From Odontesthes bonariensis (Eukaryota; Chordata; Actinopteri; Atheriniformes; Atherinopsidae), in the NCBI RefSeq assembly GCF_027942865.1, contig NC_134509.1:23928697-23992696 (forward strand): a DNA stretch of 64,000 nt, read 5' to 3'. The position numbers and the translations under genes were made by a program. Position 1 is the stretch's first letter, and every line of letters starts with the position of its first letter. Below the pieces are notes generated by a model. It had not been told where the DNA came from. It searched no databases and saw nothing but the letters and a program-made list of their open reading frames with translations. Of the stretch, positions 24,360-61,479 are shown in pieces.

Positions 24360-27300
24360 ATGTGGAGCCTTCAGAAGCTGCAGTTGATCCTCTACCGTAA
24401 GTTGTTTAAGTCAATGACTACTTACATATGTTACGTAGCCACAAGCTGAACACATTTAGGAAATGGGTGAACGGAAAATCACTCAATGTTATCCGATTTG
24501 GTCATTTCAAAGCCTTTTTCATGTTCTTCTTCTTTCCAGCTCTTCTGAGTTGTGTGACCAGTGCAGCAGGAGTGATCCATGTGTTTGGATATGAGGGCAG
24601 AGATGTTCAGGTTTCCTGCTCCTATGAGTCTGGTTATGAGGATTATGAGAAGTACCTGTGTAAGAACGACTGTGGCGACAGTGATGTTCTTCTTACAACA
24701 TCTGAGAGAAATAAAACCAAATACTCCATCTATGATGACAAGAAGACAAGAATCTTCACAACGACCATCTCTGATCTTCGTTCGAAGGATGCTGGGAAAT
24801 ACTGGTGTGGGGTGACAAGGACTGGAAAGGATATTTACACCGAAGTACAACTAGAAACAACAAAAGGTAATTCATAAAAGTTTCTACAACTCAATTTCTG
24901 ATTTGTTGTTGAGTAAAATTCAAAGGTAAGGGATTAATAAATTACTACATTTGTGTTTGCGATAAATACGAGAGGTGGAAGTGGTATAAAACTAGAACTG
25001 GGACAGGATTTGCACTCTCGCCACAACAGACCACCACACCTCTGCTCTGTTAAGTAGATCATTTTCAACATCTATTACTGCATGTAATGTAGTTGCAAAA
25101 AACACAGACAAAAAAAAACGATAATCACACAAAACACAGTCCTGAGTGAAATTAAAGCAAACATGTTATATTATTTTTGTAAAACTTTCATTTAAGTGAA
25201 GAAGATCCATACAAATGTAGAAAGATGCAGCCTGACATGAGACACTGTTTCACTGTTTGTGAACAGATCCGATGGTCCAGAACCAGACTGTGAAATTACA
25301 CTTGGGACAAATAAAGCTATAACAAAACAGACACGGAAGTGAACTTCCTAGAGTTCAGATGTGTAACATTGTTGTATGTGAAGGAAATATAAACATCAAA
25401 CATAAAGTAGAAATGTCTTTTGTGACACCTTTATTCAGTAGTAGACTAGTCTACTGAGCTAGAACTAGGGAGTGACTGCATCTGGAAGGATGATGGGGGA
25501 TGGCTGTGAGCGTGGCATGGGAGCTCCTGGCTTTAAGCACCGGCCTCGAGAAAAACCCACAATTTATAAGACCATTGATGGGCTTGTTATCGTTGAGGAT
25601 GAGTTCCTTAATTTCCTTGCGGTTAAAATTAAAACGATGACTCAGGACGAACTCGTTCTGATAGCATCAAGCACTTTTGACACCGAGTGGATTGAGTCCT
25701 CCAAAACTACTCTGTTTGAACTCTGCCCTAACACCAAGCTGCGGTGTGTGCAACACAAAGGCATTCAGAAGGACGCCAACAATATCAAAAGCTGCTTAAA
25801 ACTGTTAAATGAATGCGGAGATAAAACTCCTAGATTTGTATCCCACTATCTTGATGAGTTACCACCAGTGACATTTAATAGCCTGGACGTGTCAAGCTTG
25901 CTATCTAAGATGGAGCGGCTGCACAGTGAAGTATCTACGCTGAGACAAGCAGTCTCACTCCAGGCAGATGCTGGCGAGAACCTGCGGGCCATGACTGTGT
26001 CCATAGGCCATCGAGTTAACGCTGTGGAGCGACAGTTGGGAGCAAGCAGTGATGGAGGACAAGACAGCTCGTCGGGGGAGAAGGAGAGGAGGATGGGGTG
26101 CGCTTCTGGCTCTCTACCGAAACCCACCTGTGCTCGTCCGCCTGAATCCCCTCGCACTGGCTTGACCTCGGGCGACGGGGGTGTCTGTGGCAAGGAAGGG
26201 GCGAGGAGTGGGACCACCGCTCGATCATGCCCGACTCCAGAAGGGAATATGGTTAATTCACCAGACTGGAGCGGTGTGGTGAAAAGGGGCCGACCGCGGA
26301 AAAATCATGCTGGGAGACAAATCGCAGTGGGTGCTGGTAAACCCGCACGGAAGACGTCTAAGCCTATTGTTGGCACTGGAACGCAAGGGAATATCAGTGT
26401 GATCCGCACTAAACTGGTAAGTCTTTTTGCTACTAAATTCTCACCGGACCTTAATGCAGAGACCTTGGCTAAATACCTGAGTGGCCAACTGGGGCGTAGC
26501 GTGAACTGTCAACGCATTACCACTGCGGGCAATCGATACAGCTCATTTAAAGTATCTGCGGAATGCAATGAAATTGAGGAAATGTACGATCCAGAACTAT
26601 GGCCGGAGGGCTCTGTTGTGAGGCGTTATTACGAGCCACGCAAAGCGAATGTATTGGGGGCTACCACAGCAAGGCCTCTCTCTGACTCTGGTGTTCTGAG
26701 TGGGGCTGCTGCCACACTGTGTAATTCCACTGCATGAGAGTTGGATCTTACAACTGCCGTGGGCTACGTTTGGGCAACAGCGCAGGCGATAAAGCCCGAC
26801 GTGCTGTGGTTGACAAACTGCTGCAGAGTTGTGACATTTTATGCTTACAAGAAACGTTTTTACCTAAACAGGAATTGGGACAACTAAATTCTTTTAATGC
26901 CAATTTTCATGGCGCAGGCGAGTCTACCAGGGACCTATCAATGGGGATAGTAAGAGGAAGAATTGCAGGGGGTGTGGCCATCATGTGGCATAAAAAGTTG
27001 GACCCCGTCGTTAAGGTCATTAGACTGGATGCTGACTGGTGCATTGCTGTCCAGATAAGAGTGAATAACAAAGACTTTGTCATCCTTAATGTGTACACAC
27101 CATATGAGTCACAGCAAAACGAGGATGAATATTTAAATAGGCTTGCTTTTATTAATTCTTTTATTTCTGTCAGTTCATCCACAAGTGTGTTTATAGTTGG
27201 AGATATGAACGCTGACATATCAGATCAAGGCTCCCTATTTGCAAAGCATATAAGACAATTTTGTAATGAGAATAATCTTGTAATATCCAGCCATGAACTC

Positions 27301-30300
27301 CTTCCTGCAGGAAGTTATTCCTACATTAGTGAGGCCTGGCATTCAACATCATGGCTTGACCACTGCATAAGCACGGCTGATGCACATACTGCAATAACAT
27401 CTATGGAGATTGTGTATGAGGTTACAATGGCTGATCATATCCCTCTGGTTATGGTACTGGACTGTGATAATCTCCCTGAGTTGTCACAAGAAGCGAATAG
27501 TGTTTCTCATGCTAGGCTGGACTGGACTAAGCTCACAAGAGAAGATGTGTTTTTGTACTCTGAGAAAACTGATATTTTTTTAAAGCACACATTCTTATCC
27601 AGGAATGCAATCCTGTGTTCTAATGTAAACTGTAATGATAGCTCACATAGAGAAGACTTGTGTAGTATGTATAATTCCATTACTAGAGCACTGTATGAAG
27701 CCAGTAGGCCTTTCTTTACTTGTTCTAATAAAAGACAGAACAGTAAGCCAGGGTGGAATAAGTATGTGAGTGCATTTCATGCAGAAGCCAAAAATGCATA
27801 CAAGGCCTGGGTTCTGGCAGGTAGGCCCAGACACGGGCCGGCCTTGGACCACAAAAAGTACACTAATGCGAGGTATAAATATGCAATTAGATATATCAGT
27901 AAGCATGAGCAAGCAATGAGAGCAGACGCTATGGCTGAGAAACTTCTTGGTAAAGACGTCAATGGTTTCTGGAAGGAGGTGAAGAATATAAACCGGGTCA
28001 ATACACCACTGCCATGTTCCATTGAAGGGGTGTCTGGGGCCAGCAATATAGCGGAGTTGTGGAAGCAACACTACTCTGAACTATTTAACTGTGTTAAAAG
28101 TGATGTATACATGGTTGACAATATTGCTAATAGTGACACTGTGGGAATTACATGTAGGGAGGTCCAGCATGCTATCACACAGCTAGCTGATAACAAAGCT
28201 AGTGGTCAGGATATGATCACTGCTGAGCACCTCAAGCTTGCTAGCCCAAGAGTTGCAACTCTTCTAGCAATATGCTTTACAGGGCTCATGATTCATGGTA
28301 TTTTGCCTCATACTATGTTGTCTGTTACACTGGTGCCTGTTATTAAGGACAAGGCGGGCAAGGTGGGGAGCTTGGATAACTATAGGCCTATTGCACTAGC
28401 CAGTGTGTTATCCAAGGTCCTGGAAAGAATTTTGCTTGATAGACTTGATAGCTCTATTAGTACTACAGATAATCAGTTTGGCTTTAAGCCGAAGCATGGC
28501 ACTGATCAATGTATTTTTGCTCTTAAGGAGATGGTGGAGATGTACAGAACACAGAATTCCTCCATTTTAATTTGTTTTATTGATGCGTCTAAGGCATTTG
28601 ACAGAATAAATCATTTTAAATTGTTTTTAAAACTCAGACAGAGGGGTGTCCCCAACAGTATAATTAGGATCCTGTCATACTGGTATGCCAACCAGACCAT
28701 GCAGGTCAAATGGGGGGAGGTGCTCTCTACACCGTTTGGGGTGGGAAATGGGGTCAGACAGGGTGGATTACTCTCTCCCGCTCTTTTTAATATTTATATG
28801 AATGACCTGTCTGAGCAACTGAGGGCCTGTAGGACAGGATGCATGGTTGGGAATGCACTGCTAAACCATCTCATGTATGCCGATGATCTAGCCATCTTCT
28901 CCCCCAGCAGTGCTGGGCTGCAAGAAATGCTACACGTTTGTTCCAATTATGGATTGACTTTTAATGTTAAATACAACTGCAAGAAAAGTGTTGTACTTAT
29001 ATGTAAAAGTAAGGGGGACAAGGATCTCACTTTTCCTTCTTTTTATCTGGCAGGGCAGGTTTTACCTGTAAATAACAAAACAAAGTACTTGGGACATATA
29101 ATTACTGACCAAATGTGCGATGATGATGACATCTTCAGGCAGCGCCGCATGTTATATGCACAAGCTAACATGCTGGTTAGGAAGTTTCACTGGTGCACTG
29201 ATAATGTTAAAATTAGCCTGTTCAAGGCATACTGCACCCCCCTGTATACTGCCCCCCTGTGGGCTAAGTATAAAAAGGGTAGCCTGCAGAAACTTCAAGT
29301 CGCATATAATGATGGGCTGCGCATTCTGCTTAAGAAGCCCAGGTGGAGCAGTGCAAGCGAATTGTTTTGTGGTGTTGGGGTCAACACATTCCATGCATTG
29401 TTGAGGATTTTAATGTATAGTTTTATCTGTAGATTGGATGGTTCATGGAATCAAATTATTAGGCTCCTGTCAAATCCTGCGCTTAGTGCGGTGCGATACC
29501 AGTCATATATGTGGAAACACTGGTACAAGTGTCTTTTATAAGTGTGTTTCTGTTTGTCTTTATGTATTGTCTATGTACTGTGTTTTAATTTTTGAAAATG
29601 GACCCCGAGTCTGGAAATAAAGTTGATGATGATGATGATGATGATATTCAGCTGTAACATCTTCTGTGTGTGTTTATTTTCTGAACAGACAGCTGCTGTG
29701 AAGATGTGATTAAACTCCAAGGTTACGAGGAAGGTTCAATGTCCATCAGTTGTCCCTATGAGTCTCAGTATACCGACAACCTGAAGTACATCTGCAGAGG
29801 AAACCAGCCCTCCACATGTCTGCAGCAGGCAGTAATCACCTCTGACAACACACGAAAAAGACGATTCAGGCTCACTGATGACAACGTGTCAAGATTCACA
29901 GTGAACATTAGCAGTCTGACTCTAGAAGATTCTGGGTTGTACCTTTGTGGTGTTCACAGAAACACAGGACTGGATGATTTCTCTGCTGTACACCTGGAAG
30001 TCAGAGGTGAGAGGTCATAATTACACATCACAGTATGCAAATGAGCTAAAAGAACAAAGAGCTTCGTGTGAAATTTTTATCCAGACATTCGTTATCTCTC
30101 TGAATATTTCAGTTTTAGTAATAGATAATTTCCCTGTCTATCAGAATGGTGCTGTGTGAAGTCAGAGGCCATGAGCGGCATTGTGGGACATCCAGTAACT
30201 TTGCAGTGTCCCTATCCACCTCAACACCAGAAAAACAGGAAGTTCCTCTGTAAAGGAGACCAACGCAACAACTGCACAGACATGACGAGTCAAAGCAGGT

Positions 30301-33156
30301 TCACACTGCACAATGCCTCCTCCAACTCTTTCTCAGTGACCATCGCAGAGCTGGAAGCAGGTGATGCTGGAACGTACTGGTGTGGCTCAGACTCACAGTG
30401 GAGTTTTGGAAACTACACCAAGATTCACTTGGGTAAGATCAACAGAGATGTCCCTGAGAATAGTATCAAAAAGCAACAGCTACTATGATGTACTAGTAAT
30501 AGCTCATGCCACTTTGTTCAGTAGCATTAGAAAAACAATGAAAATCATGCCTGTGGACACAAATCGACAGATTATATACTTGACTATTTCACTTTTTGCC
30601 ATGAGCCTGCATGTCACATATTGTACTGAGGATTTCAGACACACCCACATCTTAAAGACAAAAGTATGTGATTTGAGTAAAAGGGGGACCTGTGCCCCTG
30701 ACTGAATTATTCACAAGATGCAACATACTGACATTTGGCCTCCCTTTAGTTTTAGCATTTCCAGTTGTGTAGTCTAAATGCTAACCCCTGATGTATAATG
30801 TTTACTCTTATCACCAGCATAGTTCTGTATGTAATTTGTACTTTTACGGATTTTGTCAAATGCTAAATGACGGAACAAGTTGAAAGTTTGACCTGATGAT
30901 AACACCAAATGAAATGCTAAGAGATCACAAGAGTTATCTTCTTAATCTGAGGCAAAATGTCGTGCCTGTTCCACACAGAAAAAAAAATCCCTTCTGGCTG
31001 CCCCAGGTGACAGTCGGTGGATCATCCTCTGATGATCAACAACATCAGAATCTCTCATGTCAAAGAGTCTCCCAGCTGCTGACACGTTTCAGACTGAACC
31101 AACGAAGCAGACAAACACTGCTGACAGTAAAAATGATGAGCTGTACTTACAGTCTTCTTCTTTGACAGTTTATCAGCAGCAGACCAGCACTGTGGGAACA
31201 GCAGGTATTACCAATTCATCACATTTTCCTGGCAAACCTATTACAGGTACAGGTACAGTATATATGTGTGTGCACGTAGGAATAGTCAAGGGATTTTTTT
31301 TAGCTGTTGATTTATGGCGACATTTGGAGTTTGTCCTTCGGGAGGTTATTGTTGGTAAAGACAATCAAAAGTGTGACAGCTATCAGTTTGCAGTAAAGAT
31401 ACACAATTAGTTATTTTAACACAAGCACTACACTAAAGTACAAAACTGGAGTAGTCGCATTTAGTTTTGCTATTCTTGATCGTTTATCCTTATTTTTCCA
31501 GCTTACTTTACTCACTAAAGATTTCACACAAATAAAAGAACTGAGTAAGAGATGTGTAAGCTGTATGTTAAAGTAGTTTACAAACTCTTGGATGATTAAT
31601 ATAAAAACATTTGATATTTAAAGGTTTTGGGCTGTTTAAAAAGCAAAGCAAACATATCTGAGACTATTCACTCACTTTTTTAAAAATAAAGTTTATGTAG
31701 TGGGACTTCATCGTCATCACCTACAAAGGGAAAATATTATAAGTCTCACTGGATGTAGAGTCACAGGTTCCCGAGTGCTTTTAATACTTGATTAAATACT
31801 TTTACATAAGAAACATCTTTATTGAAAGATTTGTACTTTTGCCTTGTTGCATTAATACTTTTTACCTAAGAGAAGCCGCTAAATACTTCTTCCACCTCGA
31901 ACAAACTTGAACTTGTGGCCTTGGTAGTTAAATAGTGGCATGCTGTTTCAGGAAGTGAAGTCTGTGGTTTCATTCTTTTTTTCATTTCCAATATAGGTCT
32001 CTATGTTGTGTCTGTTGTATCTGCTTTGCTGCTGCTGCTGATAGTGACATGCGTCCTGGTCAAAGTTTATAAGCGCAAATGTTACAGAGTGAGAGGTATG
32101 TTTCATGCATAAAGCTGTTCAGTTATGAATACTGGCAAACAGGTGCATGCAAACAAATGTGTTTGTTCTTATGCTTTATGTTTCCAGAAACTGAAGACAC
32201 TGGAAACAGAAGTGAACCCAAAGCAGTGGACACACAGGTAGTGACAGGTTCAGCGGTTGTGATAAAACTGCTGTGATAAAAAGACGATGGTGTGTTTTTA
32301 TATAAAAGACAGAGGCTGGTACAACTGAAGAGACCCCTAAATGTCCTTAGGAAGTTCCACTGCAATCTGTCTCTATTTAGACTGAGTTGGTCAGACTCAA
32401 GTCTGCTGTATTTATATATATTCTTTAAACAGAGGGGGGCTTCACTCTCTATCTTCAAATCTTTCTTCCTGTTGTCTGAGAAAACTTCCTTTGCCGACAC
32501 TTCTTCTGCCACTTGTTTCCAGTCCTTTGATGGTAATCTTACACCAGAGTTTCTTACCAGAGTAAAACTTGAACGTTGTTCAACACCTTGAAGTGCTGTT
32601 GTTGTTGAGAACATGTTTTTGCATGAGGCACAGCTTAATCTATGAACACACAGAGCTTTTAGTGTGGCTGCAGTGTTAGCTGAGGTGGTGGGAGGAAATC
32701 ATTACATTTCTAAAACAAGTTCAGTTCTATAAGTTAATTTTATTAGAAAAATGAAACCTCAAACCAAATGTTACAGCTGTCAATAGAGCTGTCAATGTGA
32801 GCAGTATGTCATGCTCCAGAGCAAAAAACATTACCAGAAGCAATGACCATGATGATCTGTGGCTACAGTGGCAAAAAATAATGTAGTTATTGAAATAATT
32901 CAGAATATGAACCAGTCAAACTGCAGCATGTGTTTGTGATTAGTATGTGAAGTTGCTCTTTTCTTTGTTGCTTCTATTTTAGATTTATGAAAATAAAGAT
33001 GCTGTTGAAATGCACTCAAAGAGGAACACCTCCAAACAGCAGAGCGTCTGTTACCAATCTGACAACGACAGTGAGGACCAACCGGACTATGAAAACTTCA
33101 CTGCTGACGCGGGAAACTACTCTAATCAGATCTACAGCAACGTCAATAGGATATGA
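24360..33156 (+). CDS. gene A: CD300/CMRF35-like (pIgR-like) receptor, three Ig domains, intact
   Basis: Eight exons join in frame to 456 residues: 24360-24396 (leader), 24540-24866 (D1), 29689-30006 (D2), 30145-30432 (D3), 31169-31246 (stalk), 31997-32095 (TM), 32188-32237 and 32983-33156 (tail, TGA 33154-33156). D1, D2 and D3 (about residues 13-121, 122-227, 228-323) are V-type Ig folds with CD300/pIgR hallmarks: V-S-C-S-Y ... Y-L-C-K ... D-A-G-K-Y-W-C-G in D1, I-S-C-P-Y ... Y-I-C-R ... D-S-G-L-Y-L-C-G in D2, L-Q-C-P-Y ... F-L-C-K ... D-A-G-T-Y-W-C-G in D3. D2 and D3 each begin with a Cys-Cys pair. N-glycosylation sequons occur in all three. The TM (about 350-372) has no charged residue, so ITAM-adaptor pairing is unlikely. 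The tail has five tyrosines, four as Y-x-N. All Ig exons are phase 1-1. A LINE lies in the D1-D2 intron. Likely a leukocyte or epithelial surface receptor; the ligand is unknown. Splice sites were set by eye, and a missed optional stalk exon is possible. Confidence 0.88.
25490..26737 (+). CDS. LINE ORF1 protein (nucleic-acid-binding, predicted)
   Basis: About 415 residues from ATG 25490. An in-frame GTG lies 18 bases upstream, but the ATG is preferred. A leucine/heptad-rich segment near 25895-26040 (L-L-S-K-M-E-R-L-H-S-E-V) looks like a coiled coil. A basic K-R-G-R-P-R-K stretch near 26281-26303 resembles an AT-hook. The C-terminal 100 residues (T-K-F-S-P-D-L-N-A-E-T-L ... L-W-P-E-G-S-V-V-R-R-Y-Y) resemble the C-terminal domain found in ORF1 of some animal LINEs. 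No zinc knuckle was seen. It overlaps ORF2 by four bases (ATGA), suggesting coupled termination-reinitiation. Confidence 0.8.
   Translation: MMGDGCERGMGAPGFKHRPREKPTIYKTIDGLVIVEDEFLNFLAVKIKTMTQDELVLIASSTFDTEWIESSKTTLFELCPNTKLRCVQHKGIQKDANNIKSCLKLLNECGDKTPRFVSHYLDELPPVTFNSLDVSSLLSKMERLHSEVSTLRQAVSLQADAGENLRAMTVSIGHRVNAVERQLGASSDGGQDSSSGEKERRMGCASGSLPKPTCARPPESPRTGLTSGDGGVCGKEGARSGTTARSCPTPEGNMVNSPDWSGVVKRGRPRKNHAGRQIAVGAGKPARKTSKPIVGTGTQGNISVIRTKLVSLFATKFSPDLNAETLAKYLSGQLGRSVNCQRITTAGNRYSSFKVSAECNEIEEMYDPELWPEGSVVRRYYEPRKANVLGATTARPLSDSGVLSGAAATLCNSTA
26734..29541 (+). CDS. LINE ORF2: apurinic endonuclease plus reverse transcriptase
   Basis: 935 codons without interruption. The N-terminus is an APE-type endonuclease: S-Y-N-C-R-G-L near the start, L-C-L-Q-E-T (catalytic Glu), V-G-D-M-N-A-D, and A-D-H-I-P-L (catalytic Asp-His). 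The central reverse transcriptase has Y-R-P-I-A-L, C-F-I-D-A-S-K-A-F-D (motif A), G-V-R-Q-G-G-L-L-S-P and L-M-Y-A-D-D-L (motif C, catalytic Asp pair). The C-terminus is shorter than in LINEs with an RNase H, and I see no RNase H. All catalytic residues I can check are present, so the protein may be functional; recent insertion is likely. Confidence 0.93.
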   Translation: MRVGSYNCRGLRLGNSAGDKARRAVVDKLLQSCDILCLQETFLPKQELGQLNSFNANFHGAGESTRDLSMGIVRGRIAGGVAIMWHKKLDPVVKVIRLDADWCIAVQIRVNNKDFVILNVYTPYESQQNEDEYLNRLAFINSFISVSSSTSVFIVGDMNADISDQGSLFAKHIRQFCNENNLVISSHELLPAGSYSYISEAWHSTSWLDHCISTADAHTAITSMEIVYEVTMADHIPLVMVLDCDNLPELSQEANSVSHARLDWTKLTREDVFLYSEKTDIFLKHTFLSRNAILCSNVNCNDSSHREDLCSMYNSITRALYEASRPFFTCSNKRQNSKPGWNKYVSAFHAEAKNAYKAWVLAGRPRHGPALDHKKYTNARYKYAIRYISKHEQAMRADAMAEKLLGKDVNGFWKEVKNINRVNTPLPCSIEGVSGASNIAELWKQHYSELFNCVKSDVYMVDNIANSDTVGITCREVQHAITQLADNKASGQDMITAEHLKLASPRVATLLAICFTGLMIHGILPHTMLSVTLVPVIKDKAGKVGSLDNYRPIALASVLSKVLERILLDRLDSSISTTDNQFGFKPKHGTDQCIFALKEMVEMYRTQNSSILICFIDASKAFDRINHFKLFLKLRQRGVPNSIIRILSYWYANQTMQVKWGEVLSTPFGVGNGVRQGGLLSPALFNIYMNDLSEQLRACRTGCMVGNALLNHLMYADDLAIFSPSSAGLQEMLHVCSNYGLTFNVKYNCKKSVVLICKSKGDKDLTFPSFYLAGQVLPVNNKTKYLGHIITDQMCDDDDIFRQRRMLYAQANMLVRKFHWCTDNVKISLFKAYCTPLYTAPLWAKYKKGSLQKLQVAYNDGLRILLKKPRWSSASELFCGVGVNTFHALLRILMYSFICRLDGSWNQIIRLLSNPALSAVRYQSYMWKHWYKCLL

Positions 33157-35478: not shown

Positions 35479-35519
35479 CGAAAGTTACGTATGTAACTAC
35501 GGTTCTATGAATCCTGGAT

Positions 35520-35665
35520 GACCGCCAGAGGCGGTGCTTTCAAGCACTGGATGATACATCTTGCGCATGCGCAGGTCGAGTGTTAATACCAACAACGTCA
35601 CTCGTGACCCCCTGCTGACCCCGGAGAGCCTATATACTTCCGGCAACATCAGCAGGTCAGTCCTT
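35520..35665 (+). repeat. DIRS inverted terminal repeat, left
   Basis: Reverse-complement match to 41065-41210 over 146 bases by eye, starting GACCGCCAGAGGCGG. Confidence 0.93.
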
Positions 35666-39983: not shown

Positions 39984-40870
39984 TGAATGCTGGGAGAGGG
40001 AGCCGAAAACGGTGCCTTCGCCAACAAACGACTATAGGCCCCTTGGAGAGGGGCAAGTGAAGGTTTTTTTTTTTTTTTTTTCTCAAAAGAAAGTCATTCA
40101 CTTATAGATTTTTTTTTTTTTTTTACAAAAGAAAATCCTGTACTCATAGATGAATGCTGGGAGAGGGAGCCGTAAACGGTGCCTTCGCCAACAATCAACT
40201 ATAGGCCGCCTGTTCTGGGAGCGGGGGGCGCACACGCCGCCGTGCACCAGGAGAGGGGCAATTGCTGTAATTATACACTGTCTATAGTTGGATGCCGGGA
40301 GCGGGAGCCGCACACGGTGCCTTCACTGACAACCACTATAGGCCACCTGTGCTGGGAGCGGGGGGCGCACACGCCGCCTTACACCAGGAGAGGGGCTATT
40401 GCTGTATTTATACACCGTCTATAGGTGGATGCCGGGAGCGGGAGCCGCAAACGGTGCCTTCGCCGACAACCACTATAGGCCGCCTGTGCTGGGAGCGGGG
40501 GGCGCACACGCCGCCTTACACCAGAAGAGGGGCTAGTGCAAGTTCTATTAGCTATAGCTGGATGCCGGGAGCGGGAGCCGCACACGGTGCCTTCACCGAC
40601 AACCACTATAGGCCACCTGTTCTGGGAGCGGGGGGCGCACACGCCGCCGTGCACCAGGAGAGGGGCAGAACAATAGCAGCAACAAAATCAAAGAACCGGC
40701 ACAACCGAGTTGGCCGCTTAACATAAGTAGGTTACAGATGCCGGGAGAGGGCTAGCAATGTAGCTTCACCGACAATGCAACTATAAACAGACTGTTACTC
40801 ACGTGCAGCGCACAGCACCGGGAGAAGGAGCGAGCATGCTACCTAGACCGGCGCTTGTAACAGCTGGTCA
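39984..40870 (-). repeat. tandem repeat in the DIRS 5' leader, 133-177 bp units
   Basis: Units begin at 39984, 40152, 40291, 40428, 40561 and 40738, each with a GATGCCGGGAG-like core followed by CGGTGCCTTCRCC and ACTATAGGCC, and in the central units GCGGGGGGCGCACACGCCGCC. Central periods are 139, 137 and 133 bp. T-runs at about 40064-40082 and 40109-40125 interrupt the outer part. The array lies between the right terminal repeat and gag, the 5' leader of the element. Confidence 0.88.
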
Positions 40871-41064: not shown

Positions 41065-41210
41065 AAGGACTGACCTGCTGATGTTGCCGGAAGTATATAG
41101 GCTCTCCGGGGTCAGCAGGGGGTCACGAGTGACGTTGTTGGTATTAACACTCGACCTGCGCATGCGCAAGATGTATCATCCAGTGCTTGAAAGCACCGCC
41201 TCTGGCGGTC
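41065..41210 (-). repeat. DIRS inverted terminal repeat, right
   Basis: Reverse-complement partner of 35520-35665. Beyond it the outer end (to 41229) differs from the left outer end, as usual for DIRS elements. Confidence 0.93.
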
Positions 41211-41386
41211 AGTAAGGATGAAATAGAACACATTTTACCTAACTGTGTTTAGATAATTTATGCATTTCACAATGTATTAGCTATATATTAAACTAATGGG
41301 TATCTGAAAGCTAAAGATGCTTACCTTCAATGTCGTATGGAGAAGCTTTCCTTAGAATGCCATATTTTTGTTGTTTTGTTGAATGC

Positions 41387-42548: not shown

Positions 42549-45466
42549 ATGAAACAGAGCCAGCGAAACCTGCTGTTCCCCCTCTGCAGTAAGTTCAGTT
42601 AAATTAATGAAAAAAAGGGCTTTGGATAGAGGTCTTTGACCTATTAGTCATTTAATGAACTTGGAAGCCATGTATATCCACAACTTGTGTCAAATGAGCA
42701 CTAGTTTATAGTTCTGCTTTTGATTTCATGTTGTCTTCTCTTTGCAGTTGCTCTAAGTTGTGTGACCACTGCGGCACAGGTGATCGAAGTCTCTGGGTAT
42801 GAGGGAAGAGATGTGAATGTGTCCTGCACCTATCCTCAGGGTTATCAGTCATATGAGAAGTACCTGTGCAAGGACAGCTGTGACTACGATGAAGATGTTA
42901 TCATCACGACTACGCAAGCAAAAAAAGGCAGATACACCATCCGTGATAATGAGGAGAAACAAATCTTCACAGTGAGCATCTCTGATCTACGTACTGTGGA
43001 TGCTGGAAAATACCAGTGTGGGATTAGTAGGACTGGATATGATATCCTCACTGAAGTACTGCTAAAAGTAGGGCAAGGTAATTAAACATTTGCAAATAAT
43101 TACAAAGTAATTACAAATGCCAGATGATAGATTAACATCAAATAGTATCGTATTGTGAGGTCAGTTGTTGAAACTCTGATAGCTGTGAGCTTTAATTGTT
43201 GCCATGCTATTTATGCTGATGTTTTTTCCAACTGTGAAAACACAACTAAGACCGATTTTGTTAGAAATCCTGGTTATTTGAATTTGATAGGTCAACTGAT
43301 AGTGTGAAGGGGTCATTAAAGGATAACTTGATGTAAGACATTGTTATGTATTTTCTTAAAGGTAAAATGTTTTTTGCATTCCCATCAGTGGTTGTTGTTG
43401 GAGTCTCTTGTTTATTTGTTTCACTGTCAGACAGTGGCTTGTCCAATGTGACCAAAAAAACAGTTCAGATGGCTTCTGTATGATGTTATCAGTCACTCAC
43501 ATCTTTCTGGAGGACCATGGTTCCTTTCTTCGTTTTAACTTTAGCTCAAATCGTAGAGGTTAGCGGGGTTTATTCATACACAGCTCTCCTACAGTCCCAC
43601 CACAGGATTTCAGTCAGACAACTTATGTGTGAAGGTTGATAAACTTTTATTAAAACATATGATTGAAGTTTGGGTCTAGGCTCCAACCCTATCACGCCTT
43701 CTGCGTATATTTTCTCTGTGTGATTTTGGAGCGATGAGTGAGCCTACAGGTGGACGCTGGAGTGGTGGGGGGGTGAAAAGCAGATAAAGAACATGTAGAG
43801 AAAAGTAGAACCACTTAAGCATTGCTCTCTAATCAAACTAAACTGAGGCTGCAGTGTACTTAGATCATGAAATGAATTTTCATCTTCTGTCTGACAGAGT
43901 GGTGCTGTGTAAAGACAAAAAGCACGAGCAGCACTGTGGGAAATCCCTTTCCTTTGCGGTGTCCTTATCCATCAAAACACCAGAATAACAGGAAATCCCT
44001 CTGCAAGGGGGACCACCCCAACAACTGCACAGACGTGATGACAAGTGGAAGCAGGTTCACGCTGCAAGATGACGTTTCCTCCAGCTCTTTCTCAGTGATG
44101 ATCACAGAGCTGGAAGTAGGTGATACTGGGACATACTGGTGTCGCTCACACTCACAGTTGAGTTTTGGAAACTACACCAAAATTCAGCTGTCAGTAGGTA
44201 AGATTAGATGAGATCTGACAAGATTTCTTCTTTTTTCTGTTACCAGCACAAGGGAAGAAAAGTCATTTAAAAGTTGGGTCAGCATTATTCAGTGAGGAAG
44301 TTGGCTAGAAGAGTCAGGAATAAACTTTCACAGAATATGAAAGCCATGTGATTCATGTTCCCATTATAACAGGGATGATGTTTACCAAGTTCAAGTGATT
44401 TATCTGCAACCCAAGTGCCTGAAAATAGCTCCATTCAAAGCTTTAACTATGTCTCTTCATATCCTGTGAAGAAAGTATTATTTCAAAGACTCATCCTTTC
44501 AGTGTGGAAAAAAAATCAAAGTCAATACACAGCAAAGTCATACGACTGAATCCTTTTTTGTTTGTTTTCTTTAGTTTGGCCACTGCAGACCAGCACTGCA
44601 AAAACAATCAGATCAACATCAGCACCTACCCAACACAAAGATATACTGATGCATGTTCCCATTAATTTAATTTCCAATGTGGTCTTCACAAAAGTAAAGA
44701 TGAGAGTACAAACTGAATCAGTTGAGTATCTGACAACAGATGTGTGCAAAATTAGTTTTCTCTCCTTTTTTTTTCTTTTCAGGTGTTCTGCTTCTTAAGA
44801 TGTTGCTTTAAATTGTTCCTGTTCTCCTGCTGATATTACTTTCAATTGCTTTGATTATCATTTTCAAATGCAAAAGGAAAAGTATGCATTACCTACTGCA
44901 TGCAAAACTACACAAATTGATACACCATATTATTTTTATGAGCCATCATGTTTTGACATGTGCATGGTTGTGTAAATGTGTGTCTCCAGGATCTGAAGCC
45001 AGCACTAATAAGGAGATGAGAAAGTTAGAGGCTTTCAAAATGGTAGGTGTGACACATTTAAAAAAAATCTTGGTTTTCAACAGTGCGGAGCCAAGCTTCT
45101 AATTCAGAGGACCTCGCCACCAAAACTACAAAAAGACTACATTTGTTACATGTTACATGTACCATCATCTAAAAACAGCCTCATCAGTGACTCCAACACT
45201 GTTCTTTGAACTCACTGATACAAAAGTGTGGCATGCAGTGACCAACTGTAGTCACTCCATCCTATAGGCCCTTCCCTATTGGATATCTAACTTTCATCTA
45301 TACATATGTGATTGTTTATTTATCTACATATTCATTTCTTTAGATCCGTCAAAATGCAGCAGATGCAGCTGACCCAAACCAACAGAGCATCAGTCGCAAT
45401 GAAATGCAAGAAAATGTGTACCAAAGCCTCACTTCATCAGAAGAAATCTACTCTGTCTGTCAGTAG
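42549..45466 (+). CDS. gene B: CD300/pIgR-like, two Ig domains, stop before membrane span
   Basis: Exons: leader 42549-42588, D1 42748-43077, D3-type Ig 43898-44197, TM 44783-44881, tail 44990-45042 and 45344-45466. No D2 exon is present. D1 has V-S-C-T-Y, Y-L-C-K and D-A-G-K-Y-Q-C-G (Gln replaces the usual Trp); D3 has L-R-C-P-Y, S-L-C-K and D-T-G-T-Y-W-C-R. The TM exon has an in-frame TAA (44809-44811) after nine codons, before the hydrophobic span I-V-P-V-L-L-L-I-L-L. Without a stalk exon the product would be about 232 residues, probably secreted. A stalk-like exon after 44584 lacks a GT donor and meets a stop. Downstream exons still read on in frame (N-V-Y-Q-S-L, E-I-Y-S-V), so loss is recent or the stop is bypassed by splicing. 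It is the most diverged of the four genes. Pseudogene status is possible. Confidence 0.75.
44809..44811 (+). other. in-frame TAA in the TM exon of gene B
   Basis: With phase-1 splicing into 44783 the tenth codon is TAA. The exon length (99 bases) equals that of the gene A TM exon, so the frame is conserved and this is a point nonsense change. Confidence 0.85.
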
Positions 45467-50238: not shown

Positions 50239-53200
50239 ATGTGGAGCTTTCACAACTTGCTGCTTATCCTCTACAGTAAGTTATACCATTTGATTCTGGG
50301 CAAACACAACTTGTCTATGGCAGTCTGCTTTAGTTCTTTGTTGTGAATATTTTCAGTAACAAACCTGACTAGTGACTTTAGTTACGTAACATAAGTTTAA
50401 AAAAATACAAAAAGTAAGAAACAAATGTGTGCATATCTTCGGGATTGTGATTATAAAAATAGTTATCTCAATGCTAGATAACATATCTTGATATTTAAGG
50501 TACTTCAAAGATAGTCCATTACAATCCAATTCATTGTAATACAACCCCAATCCAAATTAGACAAATTCATACAAAATAAAAAAAATTTTAAATCCCCATC
50601 ATCTTCCTTTTAACAGGAAGAAACCTCCAGCAGAAGCACACTCAGGGAGGGTGGCCATCTGCCTCGTCCGGCTGGGGTTTAATAGGACAGAAAAGAGGGG
50701 ACAACAAACGCCGTAACACCAGGCCAGGGATACCTGCTGAGAAAGAGAAACACAAGCTAATGACAGCAATGATACATGGAGAGTAAATAGAGCAGAATGA
50801 AGAAAAGGGCCAGCAGTCTAGACCAGGGGTCTTCCACGTTTTTCAGGCCAGGGACCCCCAAACTGATGGAGAGTTGGAGCAGGGACCCCCCTACTATTTA
50901 TATGGCATACAATTGTGTTTTATATTTAACGGGGCCTAGTGCCGTGTAGCTACTCTGTTATTGTACATTCAATACTAAGCTATTCAAATAATACACAGGT
51001 TAATATATTCATGTTTTTATTTTAAACGTGTGCAAGGTACAGGGTGGCCGTGCCACTGCCATTTATAAACAAACATCTTGCATACAACACTGAGCTATTC
51101 AAATAATCCACAGATTTTAACTTTAAACATGCATGTAGATGGGACAATGAATCCTCAAACCATCTGTGGATGGCACATGTTTGCACACAATTTGTGAGAA
51201 AAAACTGTTTAAAAGAAACTGTTTAAAAAAAAAAAAAAAAGTTAAAAATCGTCTAATCAACCAAAGATTTCGCGACCCCCCTGCAGTACCTCCGCGGACC
51301 CCCTGTTGAAGACCTCTGGTCTAGACTATATCAGCGTAACTATGGGATGTTTCAGGGACACCTGAACCACCCCTAACCGCCCCTATAAATGTTAATATAT
51401 TAAAGGTAGAGAGGGTGTCTGCTTCCTGAATCCAAACTGGCAGCTGGTTCCAAAAGAGAAGGAACAGATAACTGAAGGCTCTGCCTCTCATTCTACTTTT
51501 AGAACCTCTGGGAACCACAAGTAAACCTACAGTCAGAGAAAGAAGTCCTCTGTTAGGAAAATACAGTATAAAGAGTAAATTAATGTTGTCTTCTCCTTCT
51601 CTTTCCAGCTGCTCTGAGTTGTGTGACCAGTGCAGCAGGTGTGATCCATGTGTTTGGATATGAGGGCAGAGATGTTCAGGTTTCCTGCTCCTATGAGTCT
51701 GGTTATGAGGATTATGAGAAGTACCTGTGTAAGAACGACTGTGGCAACAGTGATGTTCTTATTAGAACATCAGAGAGAAATAAAACCAAATACTCCATCT
51801 ATGATGACAAGAAGACAAGAATCTTCACAACGTCCATCTCTGATCTTCGTTCTATCGATGCTGGGAAATACTGGTGTGGGGTGGACAAGACTGGAAAGGA
51901 TGTTTACACTGAAGTAAAGCTGGAACTGAGTAGAGGTACGTAAATAAAGTCTTTCCACAACTCACTTTAAACATTGAAATCAAATATACTGTAAAAAATT
52001 AACCAAAGTGCTGAATATAAAACTGCACCATTTCTTTATTTCAAGTTATAAGAATGTAGCTATAGAGGTCTTATCAGCAAATATTTTCCAACAAAACATG
52101 AGATTGCATTCAAAACCAAGAGAACATTTTTCTCTTTGCTCAAAACTCAATGACAGACAGCTGCTGTGAAGATGTGATTAAACTCCAAGGTTACGAGGAA
52201 AGTTCAGTGTCCATCAGTTGTCCCTATGAGTCTCAGTATACCGACAACCTGAAGTACATCTGCAGAGGAAACCAGTCCTCCACATGTCTGCAGCAGGCAG
52301 TAATCACCTCTGACAACACACAAAAAAGACGATTCGGGCTCACTGATGACAACGTGTCAAGATTCACAGTGAACATTAGCAGTCTGACTCTAGAAGATTC
52401 TGGGTTGTACCTTTGTGGTGTTCACAGAAACACAGGACTGGATGATTTCTCTGCTGTACACCTGGAAGTCAGAGGTGAGAGGTCATAATTACACATCACA
52501 GTATGCAAATGAGCTAAAAGAACAAAGAGCTTCGAGTGAAATTTTTATCCAGACAGCATTATCTCTCTGAATATTTCAGTTTTAGTAATAGATAATCTCC
52601 CTGTCTATCAGAATGGTGCTGTGTGAAGTCAGAGGCCATGAGCGGCATTGTGGGACATCCAGTAACTTTGCAGTGTCCCTATCCACCTCAACACCAGAAA
52701 AACAGGAAGTTCCTCTGTAAAGGAGACCAACGCAACAACTGCACAGACATGACGAGTCAAAGCAGGTTCACACTGCACAATGCCTCCTCCAACTCTTTCT
52801 CAGTGACCATCGCAGAGCTGGAAGCAGGTGATGCTGGAACGTACTGGTGTGGCTCAGACTCACAGTGGAGTTTTGGAAACTACACCAAGATTCACTTGTT
52901 AGTAGGTATGAAAATCATACCTATGGACACCAATAAATAGAAAATATTTGTGACCAGAACGACAGTCAGTTGATCGTCGTCTGAGAACAACACCAACACA
53001 AATATTTCTCTTATCTGTTTGACAGCTGCTGACACATTTAAGACCAACCAACTTTCTGACAAACACTGCAGACAGTATAAATGATGAGCTGTACTAACTG
53101 TCTTCTCCTTCAACAGTTTATCAGCAGCAGACCAGCTCTGTAGGGACTGGCATTACCAATTTACCACATGGTACTGTCAAACCTATTACAGGTAGTGTAT

Positions 53201-54277
53201 ATGTGTGTGTGCACGTCGAATTAGTCTATGGTCAGTCTCCACAACTGTTGTGGACTTAGTTATTTCTAAAACAAAATCAATAAAATGTTAGTGTCACAGT
53301 GGAATTTAGGAAACTAAGAGTCAAAAAACAACTGAATAGAATGAACTTGTGTGAAGAGTTATGTCCTGGTGCATTTTGTCACGATAAAAGAAGTCAGACA
53401 ACAACAAATTACTGTAGCCCAACTTTTGACATAAAAACCAGCGGCTGGGCCAGGACTGATCGTGTTATTATTCCAAATCTGCAGGTCACTGAAAGCAAAA
53501 ATATTTTTCTGAGATTTAAAAGGTTCATTGCATGTTCTGAGAATATTTTTTATCTGACAGTCTTTCCACAGGAAACCGAGACTGTGACTCTGATCTCTGC
53601 TTCTGCATGGGTTACAGCACCATCGCCAAATGAAGCCAGTGAGCGTATTACACCTTTATGTGTTTCTTTGAATTACTCCTGTTGTCCACCATTGCTTCTT
53701 TAAGGAGGAACAAGTGTGTGTGTTTGCATCACTATAAATACAAGCAGACCATGAAACAGGAAAACATGTTATTGTAATGTGTATTCTCAACTTTTCAGAC
53801 GTAACTCACTTCATAATCTTGGTTTACGTCCTGCCAGCAGTTTTGATTCCACTGCTGATCCTTTAAATTGTCATTGTGATGGTTCGGAAAAACAAACGCA
53901 AAAGATTGCAAGGTACGTTGTACACAGAACATGTATACAGAGATGGGTACACAGTTACTAATAAACAATAATGTGGGTTTTTGTATTGTTTCAGAAGGTG
54001 GAGTTAATTTTAATTCATTAAACACAGCGGAAGCAACTTAGAAGCTAAGGCTTCATCGTTTTTGAAACATTGACATAAGATATAAGACACAAACTTACTT
54101 TGGCATATTGTATAAAGATATAGAATATGATAGTTTTTGTAACTGTTGCTGTTTGCTCCATCATCATGTTTTTTTTTTGTTTTTTTTTAGATTTGTGAAA
54201 ATCCAGAAGGTGTAGCTCCATCAAAGCAGATCACCTGTCACGAAGATGAAGCAGCTGAATCTCCCAGCAACAGATAA
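50239..54277 (+). CDS. gene C: CD300/pIgR-like, three Ig domains, stop inside TM, tail degenerate
   Basis: Exons: leader 50239-50275, D1 51609-51935, D2 52157-52474, D3 52612-52905, stalk 53117-53191, second stalk 53561-53638 and TM 53799-53912; tail-like exons near 53995 and 54191-54277. The frame is open from ATG to TAA at 53864-53866, giving 398 residues. The stop falls within the membrane span, after F-I-I-L-V-Y-V-L-P-A-V-L-I-P-L-L-I-L, leaving a C-terminal hydrophobic end of about 18 residues without a cytoplasmic tail. The D3 exon is identical to that of gene A by eye up to its last codons. The tail exon at 54191 has I-C-E-N where gene A has I-Y-E-N, and no tyrosine at all. The exon near 53995 runs into TAG with no clear donor. 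The product could be secreted, tail-anchored or GPI-processed, or the gene may be dying. Confidence 0.78.
50560..51550. mobile_element. old interspersed repeat, split by a younger MITE
   Basis: Left part 50560-50815 (CTTTTAACAGGAAGAAACCT, CAGGGAGGGTGGCCATCTGC) and right part 51327-51550 (GGCAGCTGGTTCCA, TGAAGGCTCTGCCTCTCATT, GGGAACCACAAGTAAACCT) are halves of one repeat common in teleosts. Class unknown to me; non-coding. Confidence 0.6.
50816..51326. mobile_element. MITE with CCAGGGGTCTTC-type terminal inverted repeats
   Basis: Begins GTCTAGACCAGGGGTCTTC and ends GAAGACCTCTGGTCTAGAC, an inverted pair with one mismatch over about 19 bases. The inner parts, AGGGACCCCC on the left and CGACCCCCCTGC/GGACCCCC on the right, are also related. 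Because the flank itself is palindromic (TCTAGA), the exact target duplication cannot be fixed. No coding capacity. An A-run lies near 51226-51240. Confidence 0.8.
53864..53866 (+). other. in-frame TAA within the TM exon of gene C
   Basis: Codon 22 of the TM exon read in the phase used by genes A and D. The following bases still encode hydrophobic I-V-I-V-M-V and a basic K-N-K-R-K-R-L stretch, so the original span and stop-transfer signal are visible after the stop. Confidence 0.87.
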
Positions 54278-56497: not shown

Positions 56498-57638
56498 ATG
56501 TGGAGTTTTCAAAACCTTCTGTCCATCCTCTGCAGTGAGTTACATCTTGTTTAACTTTTAATTTCCACAGATCAGGACCGATCGTGAATAAATGCAACTT
56601 TCATGAAAATTTGGTTCTAAGGACTTGATATTCAAACTAATAAGTATAGATAATAAATTAATGTTGTCTTCTCTTTCTCTTTCCAGCTCTTCTGAGTTGT
56701 GTGACCAGTGCAGCAGGAGTGATCCATGTGTTTGGATATGAGGGCAGAGATGTTCAGGTTTCCTGCTCCTATGAGTCTGGTTATGAGGATTATGAGAAGT
56801 ACCTGTGTAAGAACAACTGTGGCAACAGTGATGTTCTTCTTACAACATCTGAGAGAAATAAAACCAAATACTCCATCTATGATGACAAGAAGACAAGAAT
56901 CTTCACAACGACCATCTCTGATCTTCGTTCTATCGATGCTGGGAAATACTGGTGTGGGGTGACAAAGACTGGAAAGGATTTTTACACCGAAGTACAACTA
57001 GAAACAACAAAAGGTAATTCATAAAAGTTTCTACAACTTAATTTCTGGTTTGTTGTTGAGTAAAATTCAAATGTAAGGGATTAATAAATACAAGAGGTGG
57101 AAGTGCTATAAAACTAGGACCGGGACAGGATTTGCACTCTCGCCACAACAGACCACCACACCTCTGCTCTGTTAAGTAGATCATTTTCAGCATCTATTAC
57201 TGCATGTAATGTAGTTGCAAAAAACACACAAATAAAAACGATAATCACAGACAACACAGTCCTGAGTACTGTATAGAGTGAAATTAAAACAAAACATGTT
57301 AATTTCTGTTTGTAAAATTTTAATTTAAGTGAAGAAGATCCATACAAATGTAGAAAGATGCAGCCTGACATGAGACACTGTTTCACTGTTTGTGAACAGA
57401 TCCGATGGTCCAGAACCAGACTGTGAAATTACACTTGGGACAAATAAAGCTATAGCAAAACAGACACGGAAGTGAACTTCCTAGAGTTCAGATGTGTAAC
57501 ATTGTTGTATGTGAAGGAAATATAAACATCAAACATAAAGTAGAAATGTCTTTTGGGACACCTTTATTCAGCTGTAACATCTTCTGTGAGTGTTTATTTT
57601 CTGAACAGACAGCTGCTGTGAAGATGTGATTAAACTCT

Positions 57639-57670
57639 AAGGTTTGAACCTTCCTCGTAGGTTCAATGTC
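57639..57670 (+). other. nonsense change plus inverted-copy mutation in gene D D2 exon
   Basis: Genes A and C read CTC-CAA-GGT then TACGAGGAA(A/G)GTTCA. Gene D reads CTC-TAA-GGT then TTGAACCTTCCTCGTA, which is the exact reverse complement of TACGAGGAAGGTTCAA as in gene A, followed by a second GGTTCAA. The net gain is 7 bases. Confidence 0.93.
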
Positions 57671-58091
57671 CATCAGTTGTCCCTATGAGTCTCAGTATAC
57701 CAACAACCTGAAGTACATCTGCAGAGGAAACCAGTCCTCCACATGTCTGCAGCAGGCAGTAATCACCTCTGACAACACACGAAAAAGACGATTCAGGCTC
57801 ACTGATGACAACGTATCAAGATTCACAGTGAACATTAGCAGTCTGACTCTAGAAGATTCTGGGTTGTACCTTTGTGGTGTTCACAGAAACACAGGACTGG
57901 ATGATTTCTCTGCTGTTCACTTGGAAGTCAGAGGTGAGAGGTCATAATTACACATCACAGTATGCAAATGAGCTAAAAGAACAAAGAGCTTCGAGTGAAA
58001 TTGTTATCCAGACATTCGTTATCTCTCTGAATATTTCAGTTTTAGTAATAGATAATCTCTCTGTCTATCAGAATGGTGCTGTGTGAAGTCA

Positions 58092-58098
58092 GAGGCAT
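58092..58098 (+). other. 10-bp deletion point in gene D D3 exon
   Basis: Genes A and C have GAGGC-CATGAGCGGC-ATTGTG; gene D has GAGGC-ATTGTG. The loss shifts the frame at the start of the Ig domain. Confidence 0.92.
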
Positions 58099-58591
58099 TG
58101 TGGGACATCCAGTAACTTTGCAGTGTCCCTATCCACCTCAACACCAGAAAAACAGGAAGTTCCTCTGTAAAGGAGACCAACGCAACAACTGCAGAGACAT
58201 GACGAGTCAAAGCAGGTTCACACTTCACAATGCCTCCTCCAACTCTTTCTCAGTGACCATCGCAGAGCTGGAAGCAGGTGATGCTGGAACGTACTGGTGT
58301 GGCTCAGACTCACAGTGGAGTTTTGGAAACTACACCAAGATTCACTTGTCACAGGGTAAGATAATTAGAAAATAATAAAAAATATGAGTAAAAAAACAAT
58401 AAATGAGACTGTAGAATTATAGGTTCAAACTTTGATCCAAAGACTTGTGTCCTGATGCATTTTAAGTGAAATAAACAGAATATATTATTATTCTGAGATA
58501 TTAAAAGTCAATTTGGTGTAATACTTTTCTCTGACAGTGATCCTGACCACAACTGCTGGAGGGGTTACATCTCCATCACAAAATGTCCCAA

Positions 58592-60595
58592 GTAAATTCA
58601 TTTCACATTTGTGTGTTTATTAGAATTAGTTGTTTTGTTACACCTCTGTAAGGAGGATCAAAAATGAAGTCCCTAATGTAAACTATCTAATCTTATATGC
58701 AGAGTTGATTTAAGGTTGAGTTGATGCCAGTGGCTCTCAGCCTGAGAGGATGAGTCCCCAAAGAGCCACTGCCGGGTATGTGCAGATGAGCAGGGGTAAC
58801 ATGTATTGCTTGGATATGATCTGAATTAATGAACATGAGTTACAAGTATAAACTAGAAAGCTGCAAGCAGCTGTGAGCGGGACCGAGGTGTGCGTACGTT
58901 GGGATGTGTGTACGTTGGGGCATAGGCTGGACGCTGGAGCTGCAGCTCTGCCCACACGCACGATACCCTCTGCGTACGTACGAGCACATAATAACCCCAA
59001 TGCGGAGGGGTTTTTGAACATTTCTAGGGGGCGCCACTGAGCCATTTTGCTCCGCCCACACACAATACCCTTTAAATACGTACGAGGTCGTCAAGGTGGA
59101 CGTGTATGCCAAGTTTCATGACCTTGCAATGATGATGAGGCTTTCAAATCACAAACGCCATCACACGATTTTCACCGCCTGGCCACGCCCACACTGTTCA
59201 GATTTTGGAAAAGTATTTCCATGAAGTTTTGCCCCCATGTCTTAAGAGTAACCTGGCTAAGTTTGAAGCTTGTAGCATTACATTTGTAGGAGGAGTTTGA
59301 TAAAATGTGAGGTGTGGAAAAAAAAGACATTTCCGACTACCATTAGGTGGCGCTGTAGGTGGATATCACAATTCTATATGTGCGCGTTCAGGCTGGGTCC
59401 AGCAATCACCGTATGAAGTTTGGGACAGATTGGATAATGTATGTGGGAGTTATAAGCGACTTAATTTTTCATGGCGAGTCATAAATTTGAGGCGTCGCCA
59501 TTGCCACGCCCTTTGAGGTTTGAAAAAGTTTTTCCATGATTTTATCCCCCCATGTCTTAGGAATTACCTGGCAAAGTTTGAAGCTTTGAAAAAGTTTCTC
59601 CATGAATTTCCCCCCCATGTCTTAGGAGTAACCTGGCCAAGTTTGAAGTCTGTAGCACGAAATCTGTAGGACAAGTTCAATCTTATGCAAGGCGTAGAAT
59701 CGGTCAAAAATGGCACGAAAATGCACTTTCCATCCAAAATGGCCGCCTTCCTGTGGACATGGGACCATGGCGGCATGACACTTTTTTGTGCGTCTGGGCA
59801 TGATGATTGAGTGTACCGAATTTCGTCGTCCAACGCAAAAGTAACCCCAATGCGGGGACCATTTTTAAGCATCGAAGGGGGCGCTACAGAGTCAATGAGC
59901 GACTCCCAAAAATATAAAGTTTAGATTCTTTCATGTCGTCGACTGGCACGTGGCGCTCGCGAAATTTCCTGAGTTTCGCATACCTTTTGCAAAGAATAAG
60001 AATAATGGAGAAAAATAAAAATAATAATAAACCTTACAGATACAATAGGGTCCTTGCAGTTTCACTGCTCGGTCCCTAAATATTTCAGTCATGTCCAGAG
60101 TACATGTCTGTAAACAGACCCTGAAGCTCTGTGATGCTGAATTTGTCATTTAGCCATAACAAGTTTTCCCTGTTGAGTGTAGCCCAGTCGATCGTTTCAT
60201 AAGTAGCTTACAAGAAGTTTTGCCATTATTTTGAACATAGAGTCGTTGTTTTGACTGCTAACAGGGTTTTTTTTCATTCCAATTACATCAATTAAACCCC
60301 CTTAACTATACTCAGGAGCAGTATGGCCTTTAAACAGCAGTCGTGTCACTTGAGTCGTCCTACATCTGTATAGTACTTATATTTCCTCTTTTTTTTGTTT
60401 TTTTCAGTTCCCTATCATTGTTACTGTCATGTGACAGACACAGTGTGTATGTGTGTTAGACTGCAGGCCTATAGAGTATAGGCCACATGTTTGGTGTAAT
60501 TTCTTGTGCACCATGCATTCTACCACTGTGTGTGTATGTGTGTTTGTAAAGTGTGCTGTGTATACTTATGGTGTTTTGTATTTTCCTCTTTCTAG
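58592..60595 (+). other. gene D intron between stalk and TM exons
   Basis: About 2 kb, of which 58858-60082 is an inserted repeat element (listed separately). The rest has no recognised feature. Confidence 0.65.
58858..60082. mobile_element. fish interspersed element with CTGCAAGCAGC/GGGACCGAG ends, in gene D intron
   Basis: The left end has AAGCTGCAAGCAGCTGTGAG and CGGGACCGAGG. The right end has GGGTCCTTGCAGTTTCACTG and CTCGGTCCCTAAAT, whose reverse complement again gives GGGACCGAG and CTGCAAGGACCC. The inside has paired blocks such as CATGTCTTAGGAGTAACCTG (near 59240, 59552, 59615), AAGTTTGAAG and GGGGGCGC. The pattern is a common teleost repeat; I do not know its class. No intact ORF. Confidence 0.7.
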
Positions 60596-60967
60596 ATATG
60601 ACTTTATTTTATGTTCTACCTGCAGTCCTGGTTCTACTGTTGATCCTAGCATTTGTCCTTCTGATGGTTTTTAAAAAAAATCTAAGAAAGTTGCAAGGTA
60701 AATTCTACATGTGAGAACATGTGACCACACTCACACACACTCACACACACATAGAAACTCTGAGAAAACTACAAAAGCAACATCGTTTATTTCATTGTTT
60801 CAGTAGGTGGTGTCACAATGAAACCAATGAACGCTGCTGATTCAGGAAGGGAGATGACAGTTAATGATATACGTAAACAAGGCTGCAAGTCCAAAACTTT
60901 TCAAGCTGCCTACACTGTAATTGATATTTATTGTGTGTCTCATTCTTTTCAGACTTATGGCATCTAA

Positions 60968-61479
60968 GATGAGCTACCAAACATGAACTCTTCCAGTGCG
61001 CAGAGCAACTTGAATCCTGATATCTACTTCACCTATCTAACTTAACTTCATCACAACTGAACATCTGTAACTTTTTGATACCATCTGAAGAGAGTTTGAA
61101 ACGTCTCAGCTGTCAGATCAGACTGGTGATCTGTTCAGAGTGTACCTCACTTCTCACCCAATAGCTACAGCTAATTAAAGAGTGGATATTTTAAGATTTG
61201 AGGACCTCATGTGCTTTACACTTAGCAATGCAAATGTAGGATTGATGATTTAGCTGTTAGTGGGACTCCAAATGTAAAGTCTATCCTCTGAGACTAACAT
61301 AAGAAATTGAGACGTTAAGTTCAGTAAACTTAATAAAGGTTACATTTTTAGGAAACTGGTTTCCTATTGTGTATGTGCAATATCATTTTCACACGATGAT
61401 TCATCTTGCTAGGCTCCAAGCTATCAAAACAACAAATATTCAGACCAATCACTGTCTGATACTGGCACTTAGACATTAC
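60968..61479. other. 3' flank of gene D
   Basis: An AATAAA hexamer at about 61331 could end the gene D transcript. Nothing else recognised. Confidence 0.4.

Follow-up and report, generated by a model that had tools for sequence, protein, structure and literature searches.

Short template switches have been catalogued in great apes, where 4017 unique events were described by Walker et al. 2021 (PMC7954356), with a median copied length of 12 bases and a gain in length in 65% of cases, as summarized there. By that account, such events are common in genome comparisons, and the original prediction overstated how rarely they are caught. Other close systems are the yeast REG2 case, in which the arms of an inverted repeat were homogenized (PMC8604942), and microinversions, the exchange of a short segment for its reverse complement (PMC8755829). 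Here, we describe an inverted segment in a predicted receptor gene (gene D) found in a window of 64,000 nucleotides, the whole stretch of DNA that was analyzed, and set it against these systems.

The gene D site has the form of the four-point template switches of PMC7954356, in that the derived gene carries a reverse-complemented version of a stretch lying close by in the ancestral sequence, attached to ancestral flanks. As in the events described in that paper, an inverted local copy explains both substitutions and a gap, the copied length is near the median, there is a net gain, the log ratio lies above the cut-off, and a new inverted repeat is created. The site differs from them in its order of switch points (1-3-4-2, whereas the majority reported there are 1-4-3-2 and 3-2-1-4), in lying within a coding exon, a setting reported there as depleted of such events, and in being seen between paralogues rather than between species. 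With the REG2 case, as presented in PMC8604942, the site would share an intermolecular switch, an inverted spacer with a longer perfect inverted repeat, and an origin in one event in coding DNA; however, the ancestral REG2 sequence already contained an inverted repeat whose arms were 5 bases long, whereas none of at least 3 bases flanks the segment in gene A or gene C, and the length changes in gene D. Like the microinversions of PMC8755829, the segment is an exact reverse complement of comparable length at the homologous place, but those described there span 17–33 bases, have inverted-repeat flanks, and replace a segment by its reverse complement, whereas the one in gene D spans 14–16 bases, has no such flanks, and keeps 7 bases twice. 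The gene D site is ordinary biology, with a kind of mutation that is already known and a usual size and length gain, and it leaves existing knowledge unchanged. Among the literature matches listed, none dealt with template switching in Ig-receptor genes of fish.

The inverted segment and its unmutated paralogues

The window contains a tandem family of multi-Ig receptor genes, designated A, B, C, and D, which lie as follows:

Gene A: from 24360, with its last Ig exon ending at 30432; exon D2 at 29689-30006 (+)
Gene B: Ig exons at about 42735-44203
Gene C: 50239 to about 53911; exon D2 at 52157-52474 (+)
Gene D: 56498-60972 (+)

The inverted segment is located in exon D2 of gene D, and the features that bear on it are:

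57609..57933 (+): exon D2 of gene D, a broken V-set Ig domain (the domain being identified on the D2 of gene A)
57644..57659 (+): inverted copy (the 2->3 segment), of which 57645-57658 (14 bases) are unambiguous; maximum 16 bases
57660..57666 (+): GGTTCAA, the ancestral copy that was kept; its inverted version also lies within the copied segment
29724..29739 (+): unmutated homologue in gene A, within exon D2
52192..52207 (+): unmutated homologue in gene C, within exon D2, with 2 differences from gene A
29719..29736 (+): direct repeat of 6 bases, AAGGTT...AAGGTT, in the unmutated sequence of gene A (copies at 29719-29724 and 29731-29736)

We found, as had been predicted, that the 16 bases at 57644-57659 are the exact reverse complement of 29724-29739 at the homologous place in gene A, that GGTTCAA (57660-57666) stands directly after the inverted copy, and that exon D2 has gained 7 bases, being 325 bases long in gene D and 318 in genes A and C. 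Specifically, TTGAACCTTCCTCGTA occurs only once on the (+) strand, at 57644-57659, and is the reverse complement of 52192-52207 in gene C with 2 mismatches; 100 shuffles of the window gave a mean of 0.03 matches to it at up to 2 mismatches. Since one base is common at each junction, the copied length may be 14, 15, or 16 bases, and there are four exact (error-free) switch decompositions once one base, that of a TAA just upstream, is set aside. The change gives gene D a new perfect hairpin with an 8-base stem (57644-57651 with 57659-57666) and a 7-base loop. The folded-strand energy (DNA parameters) is −5.8 kcal/mol for gene D, −1.8 kcal/mol for gene A, and −0.6 kcal/mol for gene C, and 11 of 200 shuffled versions of the D strand matched or surpassed its folding energy.

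Template-switch scores and geometry

Following the description in PMC7954356, we wrote our own unidirectional and template-switch pair models (pair-HMM), using hominid gap parameters and a self-set switch prior; the scores are those of this implementation rather than of the published program, for which the log-ratio cut-off is 9 and the stated false-positive rate 0.005. Run on the exons of genes A, C, and D, the aligner check proposed at the outset showed that one switch beats independent changes, with a log ratio above 9. From gene A to gene D, the switch was favored over substitutions plus indels by 15.1–26.4 natural-log units across nine settings, and from gene C to gene D the log-probability ratio was 15.5 under one parameter setting. 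We also scored 48 mutation clusters across the window, defined as two or more differences and taken from 12 window self-alignments of at least 85% identity and at least 100 bases (gene B was therefore not included), with none dropped for length. Only 4 of the 96 values exceeded 9, all of them at the gene D site, of which they represent two pairwise views, and the next best value was 5.0.

Random 16-mers of local composition set in the same place never reached the observed score (0/1000), while 16-mers drawn from the whole window reached it in 2 of 1000 cases. The latter draw held three reverse-complement pieces of gene A's own stretch, i.e., true inverted copies, and the two high scores would fit draws of the true source. 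Once the exons of genes A, C, and D were left out of the draw, none of 1000 window-drawn 16-mers reached the observed score. Across the three nulls, values above 9 numbered 1, 4, and 5 per 1000, which is about the published false-positive rate. A scan that uses no alignment, comparing 4932 10-mers, 4908 12-mers, and 4884 14-mers between paralogues, revealed paralogue-private local reverse-complement 10-, 12-, and 14-mers at the gene D site only; at a length of 8, matches were found in four other alignments as well. Taken with the log ratios, the cluster and k-mer scans support the claim of a single event, with one switch explaining the site far better than independent changes.

The aligner alone gives no direction of change, because both directions score above 9 (D to A, 12.1; D to C, 11.6), a behavior of which PMC7954356 warns. 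The gene D form is supported as the derived one because the uninverted form is present in genes A and C alike, because the V-set frame is open only with that form, and because the Ig motif matches. Specifically, GYEEGSMSISC in gene A resembles GYEGRDVQVSC of exon D1, its GS-I-C part resembles pIgR chains, and pIgR and CMRF35-like chains match across the uninverted stretch.

On gene A, switch points 1, 2, 3, and 4 lie at 29723/4, 29738/9, 29724/5, and 29732/3, respectively. Their order is 1-3-4-2 in three of the four exact solutions, and in the fourth points 1 and 3 are tied. For rightward and leftward copying alike, point 2 lies ahead of point 1, an arrangement that excludes intra-strand switching under the rule given in PMC7954356; the growing strand was thus not its own template, so the copy would have come from the opposite template strand. 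A hairpin (intra-strand) switch of the growing strand is ruled out by this geometry in both replication directions. Copying of the opposite strand, as originally proposed, therefore agrees with the geometry, which fits an inter-strand switch of order 1-3-4-2, with the polymerase itself presumed.

Judging from the sequence, the inverted segment in gene D is most likely the product of a single template switch onto the opposite template strand. A single synthesis event on the line leading to gene D, during replication or repair, would have departed from its template beyond AAGGT(T), read the opposite template strand in reverse over 14–16 bases, and gone back to the original template within the stretch just copied. 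Because the point of resumption would lie inside the copied stretch, GGTTCAA would be doubled, standing once inverted and once direct, with a net gain of 7 bases, a frameshift, and the new perfect hairpin as the outcome. We infer the involvement of a polymerase, an origin in the germ line, a course in one step, and inter-strand switching within one fork. The junction homology of one base per side is a caveat on the switch model. The two AAGGTT copies of gene A have switch points 1 and 4 at or inside them, and this direct repeat may have helped the switch. The site would be a clean case, in coding sequence, of inter-strand template switching where ancestral inverted repeats are lacking and two unmutated paralogues lie nearby. 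It would be useful for testing mechanism, since the switch-point order rules out the hairpin explanation that is usually given. A further warning, for tandem families of immune genes, is that one event can mimic a burst of substitutions plus an insertion.

Alternative explanations

The strongest rival, which we consider unlikely, is a route in two steps, in which a 7-base inverted insertion (TTGAACC) would create perfect inverted-repeat arms 9 bases apart and the spacer between them would then be inverted. The final sequence would be identical, and the second step would itself be template switching between the arms. Both steps have precedents, since the majority switch types described in PMC7954356 make single inverted repeats and yeast genes provide documented cases of a spacer inverting between the arms of an inverted repeat (PMC8604942), but two events are needed, and the intermediate form is seen in neither gene A nor gene C. 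A spacer inversion at pre-existing inverted repeats was rejected, because the hairpin arms TTGAACCT/AGGTTCAA are present in gene D and absent from gene A. Classical inverted-repeat microinversion was likewise ruled out, as no flanking inverted repeat of at least 3 bases was found in gene A or gene C with either boundary shifted by up to 3 bases; at the segment in gene A, there was also no inverted repeat of at least 6 bases. Another rival is a double-strand break inside the segment, mended by microhomology-mediated break-induced replication or by inverted ligation of a staggered fragment with fill-in. Break repair has been proposed for the microinversions of 17–33 bases (PMC8755829), and we would add that staggered ends could leave the GGTTCAA duplication. 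However, the 59 microinversions reported in PMC8755829 are flanked by inverted repeats of 3–75 bases, whereas none of at least 3 bases is found here, the junctions share one base, and two breaks within 16 bases are a demanding requirement, all of which makes break repair very unlikely.

An assembly or sequencing artefact deserves consideration because the locus, a tandem family with blocks 95–99% identical, is known here from the assembly alone. Nevertheless, we regard this as highly improbable: a collapse of paralogues would yield mixtures of genes A, C, and D rather than a reverse complement, differences private to gene D lie on both sides of the site, and the other lesions of gene D are typical of a decaying copy. 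A chance cluster of independent substitutions and an insertion has nothing in its favor beyond general possibility, and it is made exceedingly improbable by the null draws described above, both of local composition and from the window with the homologous exons excluded; the two high scores obtained with those exons in the draw are consistent with draws of the true source.

Other lesions of gene D and the surrounding receptor family

Gene D carries further changes, and its exons and lesions outside the inverted copy are as follows:

56498..56534 (+): predicted signal-peptide exon
56687..57013 (+): exon D1, an open V-set Ig domain
57638..57640 (+): TAA, one C-to-T change, just upstream of the inverted copy
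58072..58355 (+): exon D3, frameshifted by a private 10-base deletion
58538..58591 (+): stalk exon, placed from splice sites and frame
60596..60697 (+): predicted transmembrane exon, similar to gene C 53819-53911
60804..60972 (+): two putative cytoplasmic exons with the terminal stop

The exon borders are predicted ones, drawn by eye; the placed internal exons have AG/GT splice sites, and the lengths of D1, the stalk, the membrane exon, and the first cytoplasmic exon are divisible by three. The CAA-to-TAA change that had been noted just upstream of the inverted copy is present, with an in-frame TAA at 57638-57640 where genes A and C have CAA. The TAA was ruled out as part of the switch event, since 0 exact switch decompositions including it were found, and it is therefore treated as a separate C-to-T change; its position a few bases from the switch is unsurprising given that genes A and D diverge by about 2%. 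The further claim that the event destroys D2 stands in part. The frameshift of +7 alone would break the exon, but D2 and D3 together carry three lesions, this frameshift among them, and because of the upstream TAA and the 10-base deletion near 58094 that is private to exon D3 of gene D (leaving 284 bases, not a multiple of three), the destruction is not assignable to the switch alone.

The plainer reading is that gene D is a pseudogene. Exon D1 differs between genes A and D at 7 of 327 sites, with five residues changed, and these differences give, at the sequence level, no sign of constraint. The gene could survive the loss of D2, as its Ig exons have compatible phases. Specifically, the translation meets a stop at codon 132 with D2 included and at codon 136, in D3, with D2 alone skipped, and it has an open frame of 202 residues with D2 and D3 both skipped. 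That gene D is alive as a one-domain receptor with a signal peptide, D1, stalk, membrane segment, and tail is conceivable but doubtful. A parallel for a receptor lacking D2 is offered by gene B (42735-44203), which has D1 and D3 exons and shows no D2 match between them (tblastn 1e-4, blastn 1e-5). If the one-domain reading is true, the template switch would have been a step from a three-Ig to a one-Ig receptor.

The genes of the family resemble receptors of the pIgR/CMRF35-like V-set type, with a predicted receptor role. Pfam V-set matches were obtained for all three Ig exons of gene A and for D1 of gene D, and the D2 domain of gene A matches pIgR chains (E 6.5e-30) and CMRF35-like chains (E about 1e-10) in PDB. 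In a phase test for V-set exons, the lengths of the Ig exons in genes A and C proved divisible by 3, with AG/GT sites. The likeness to pIgR and CMRF35-like (CD300) V-set receptors thus lies in the PDB matches of gene A's D2 and in Pfam V-set, whereas the family here differs in being tandem, with up to 3 V-set exons per gene, in a genome that the gene family and repeats mark as presumably that of a teleost fish. By tblastn, no relatives were found in a genome-contig collection (77 pattern stretches) or among viral contigs (12).

The homology between genes A and C begins abruptly at the D2 splice acceptor (29685 and 52153, respectively) and extends over 747 bases at 98.7%, while their D1 exons are more divergent (26/327 differences), and together these observations suggest that the D2-D3 block was exchanged or converted between the two genes. 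In gene C, 53819-53911 encodes a transmembrane-like stretch resembling that of gene D, and the frame concerned contains a stop; truncation of gene C or its use of another exon may be the reason. Intron 1 of gene A contains a non-LTR retrotransposon (25439-29644) that has two open frames, one of 421 aa and a second of 935 aa in which Exo_endo_phos and RVT_1 domains were identified, and a GATGAT-repeat end. TATTCAG lies on either side of the insert and looks like a 7-base target-site duplication, whereas gene D has kept the empty site, with TATTCAG there once (57565-57571); the insertion therefore looks to be later than the duplication that gave genes A and D. Elsewhere in the window, 40138-40667 is a four-copy tandem array with a spacing of 133–137 bases, and 35519-35665 and 41065-41211, about 5.4 kb apart, form a 147-base inverted repeat with 100% identity, perhaps two copies of a recent mobile element.
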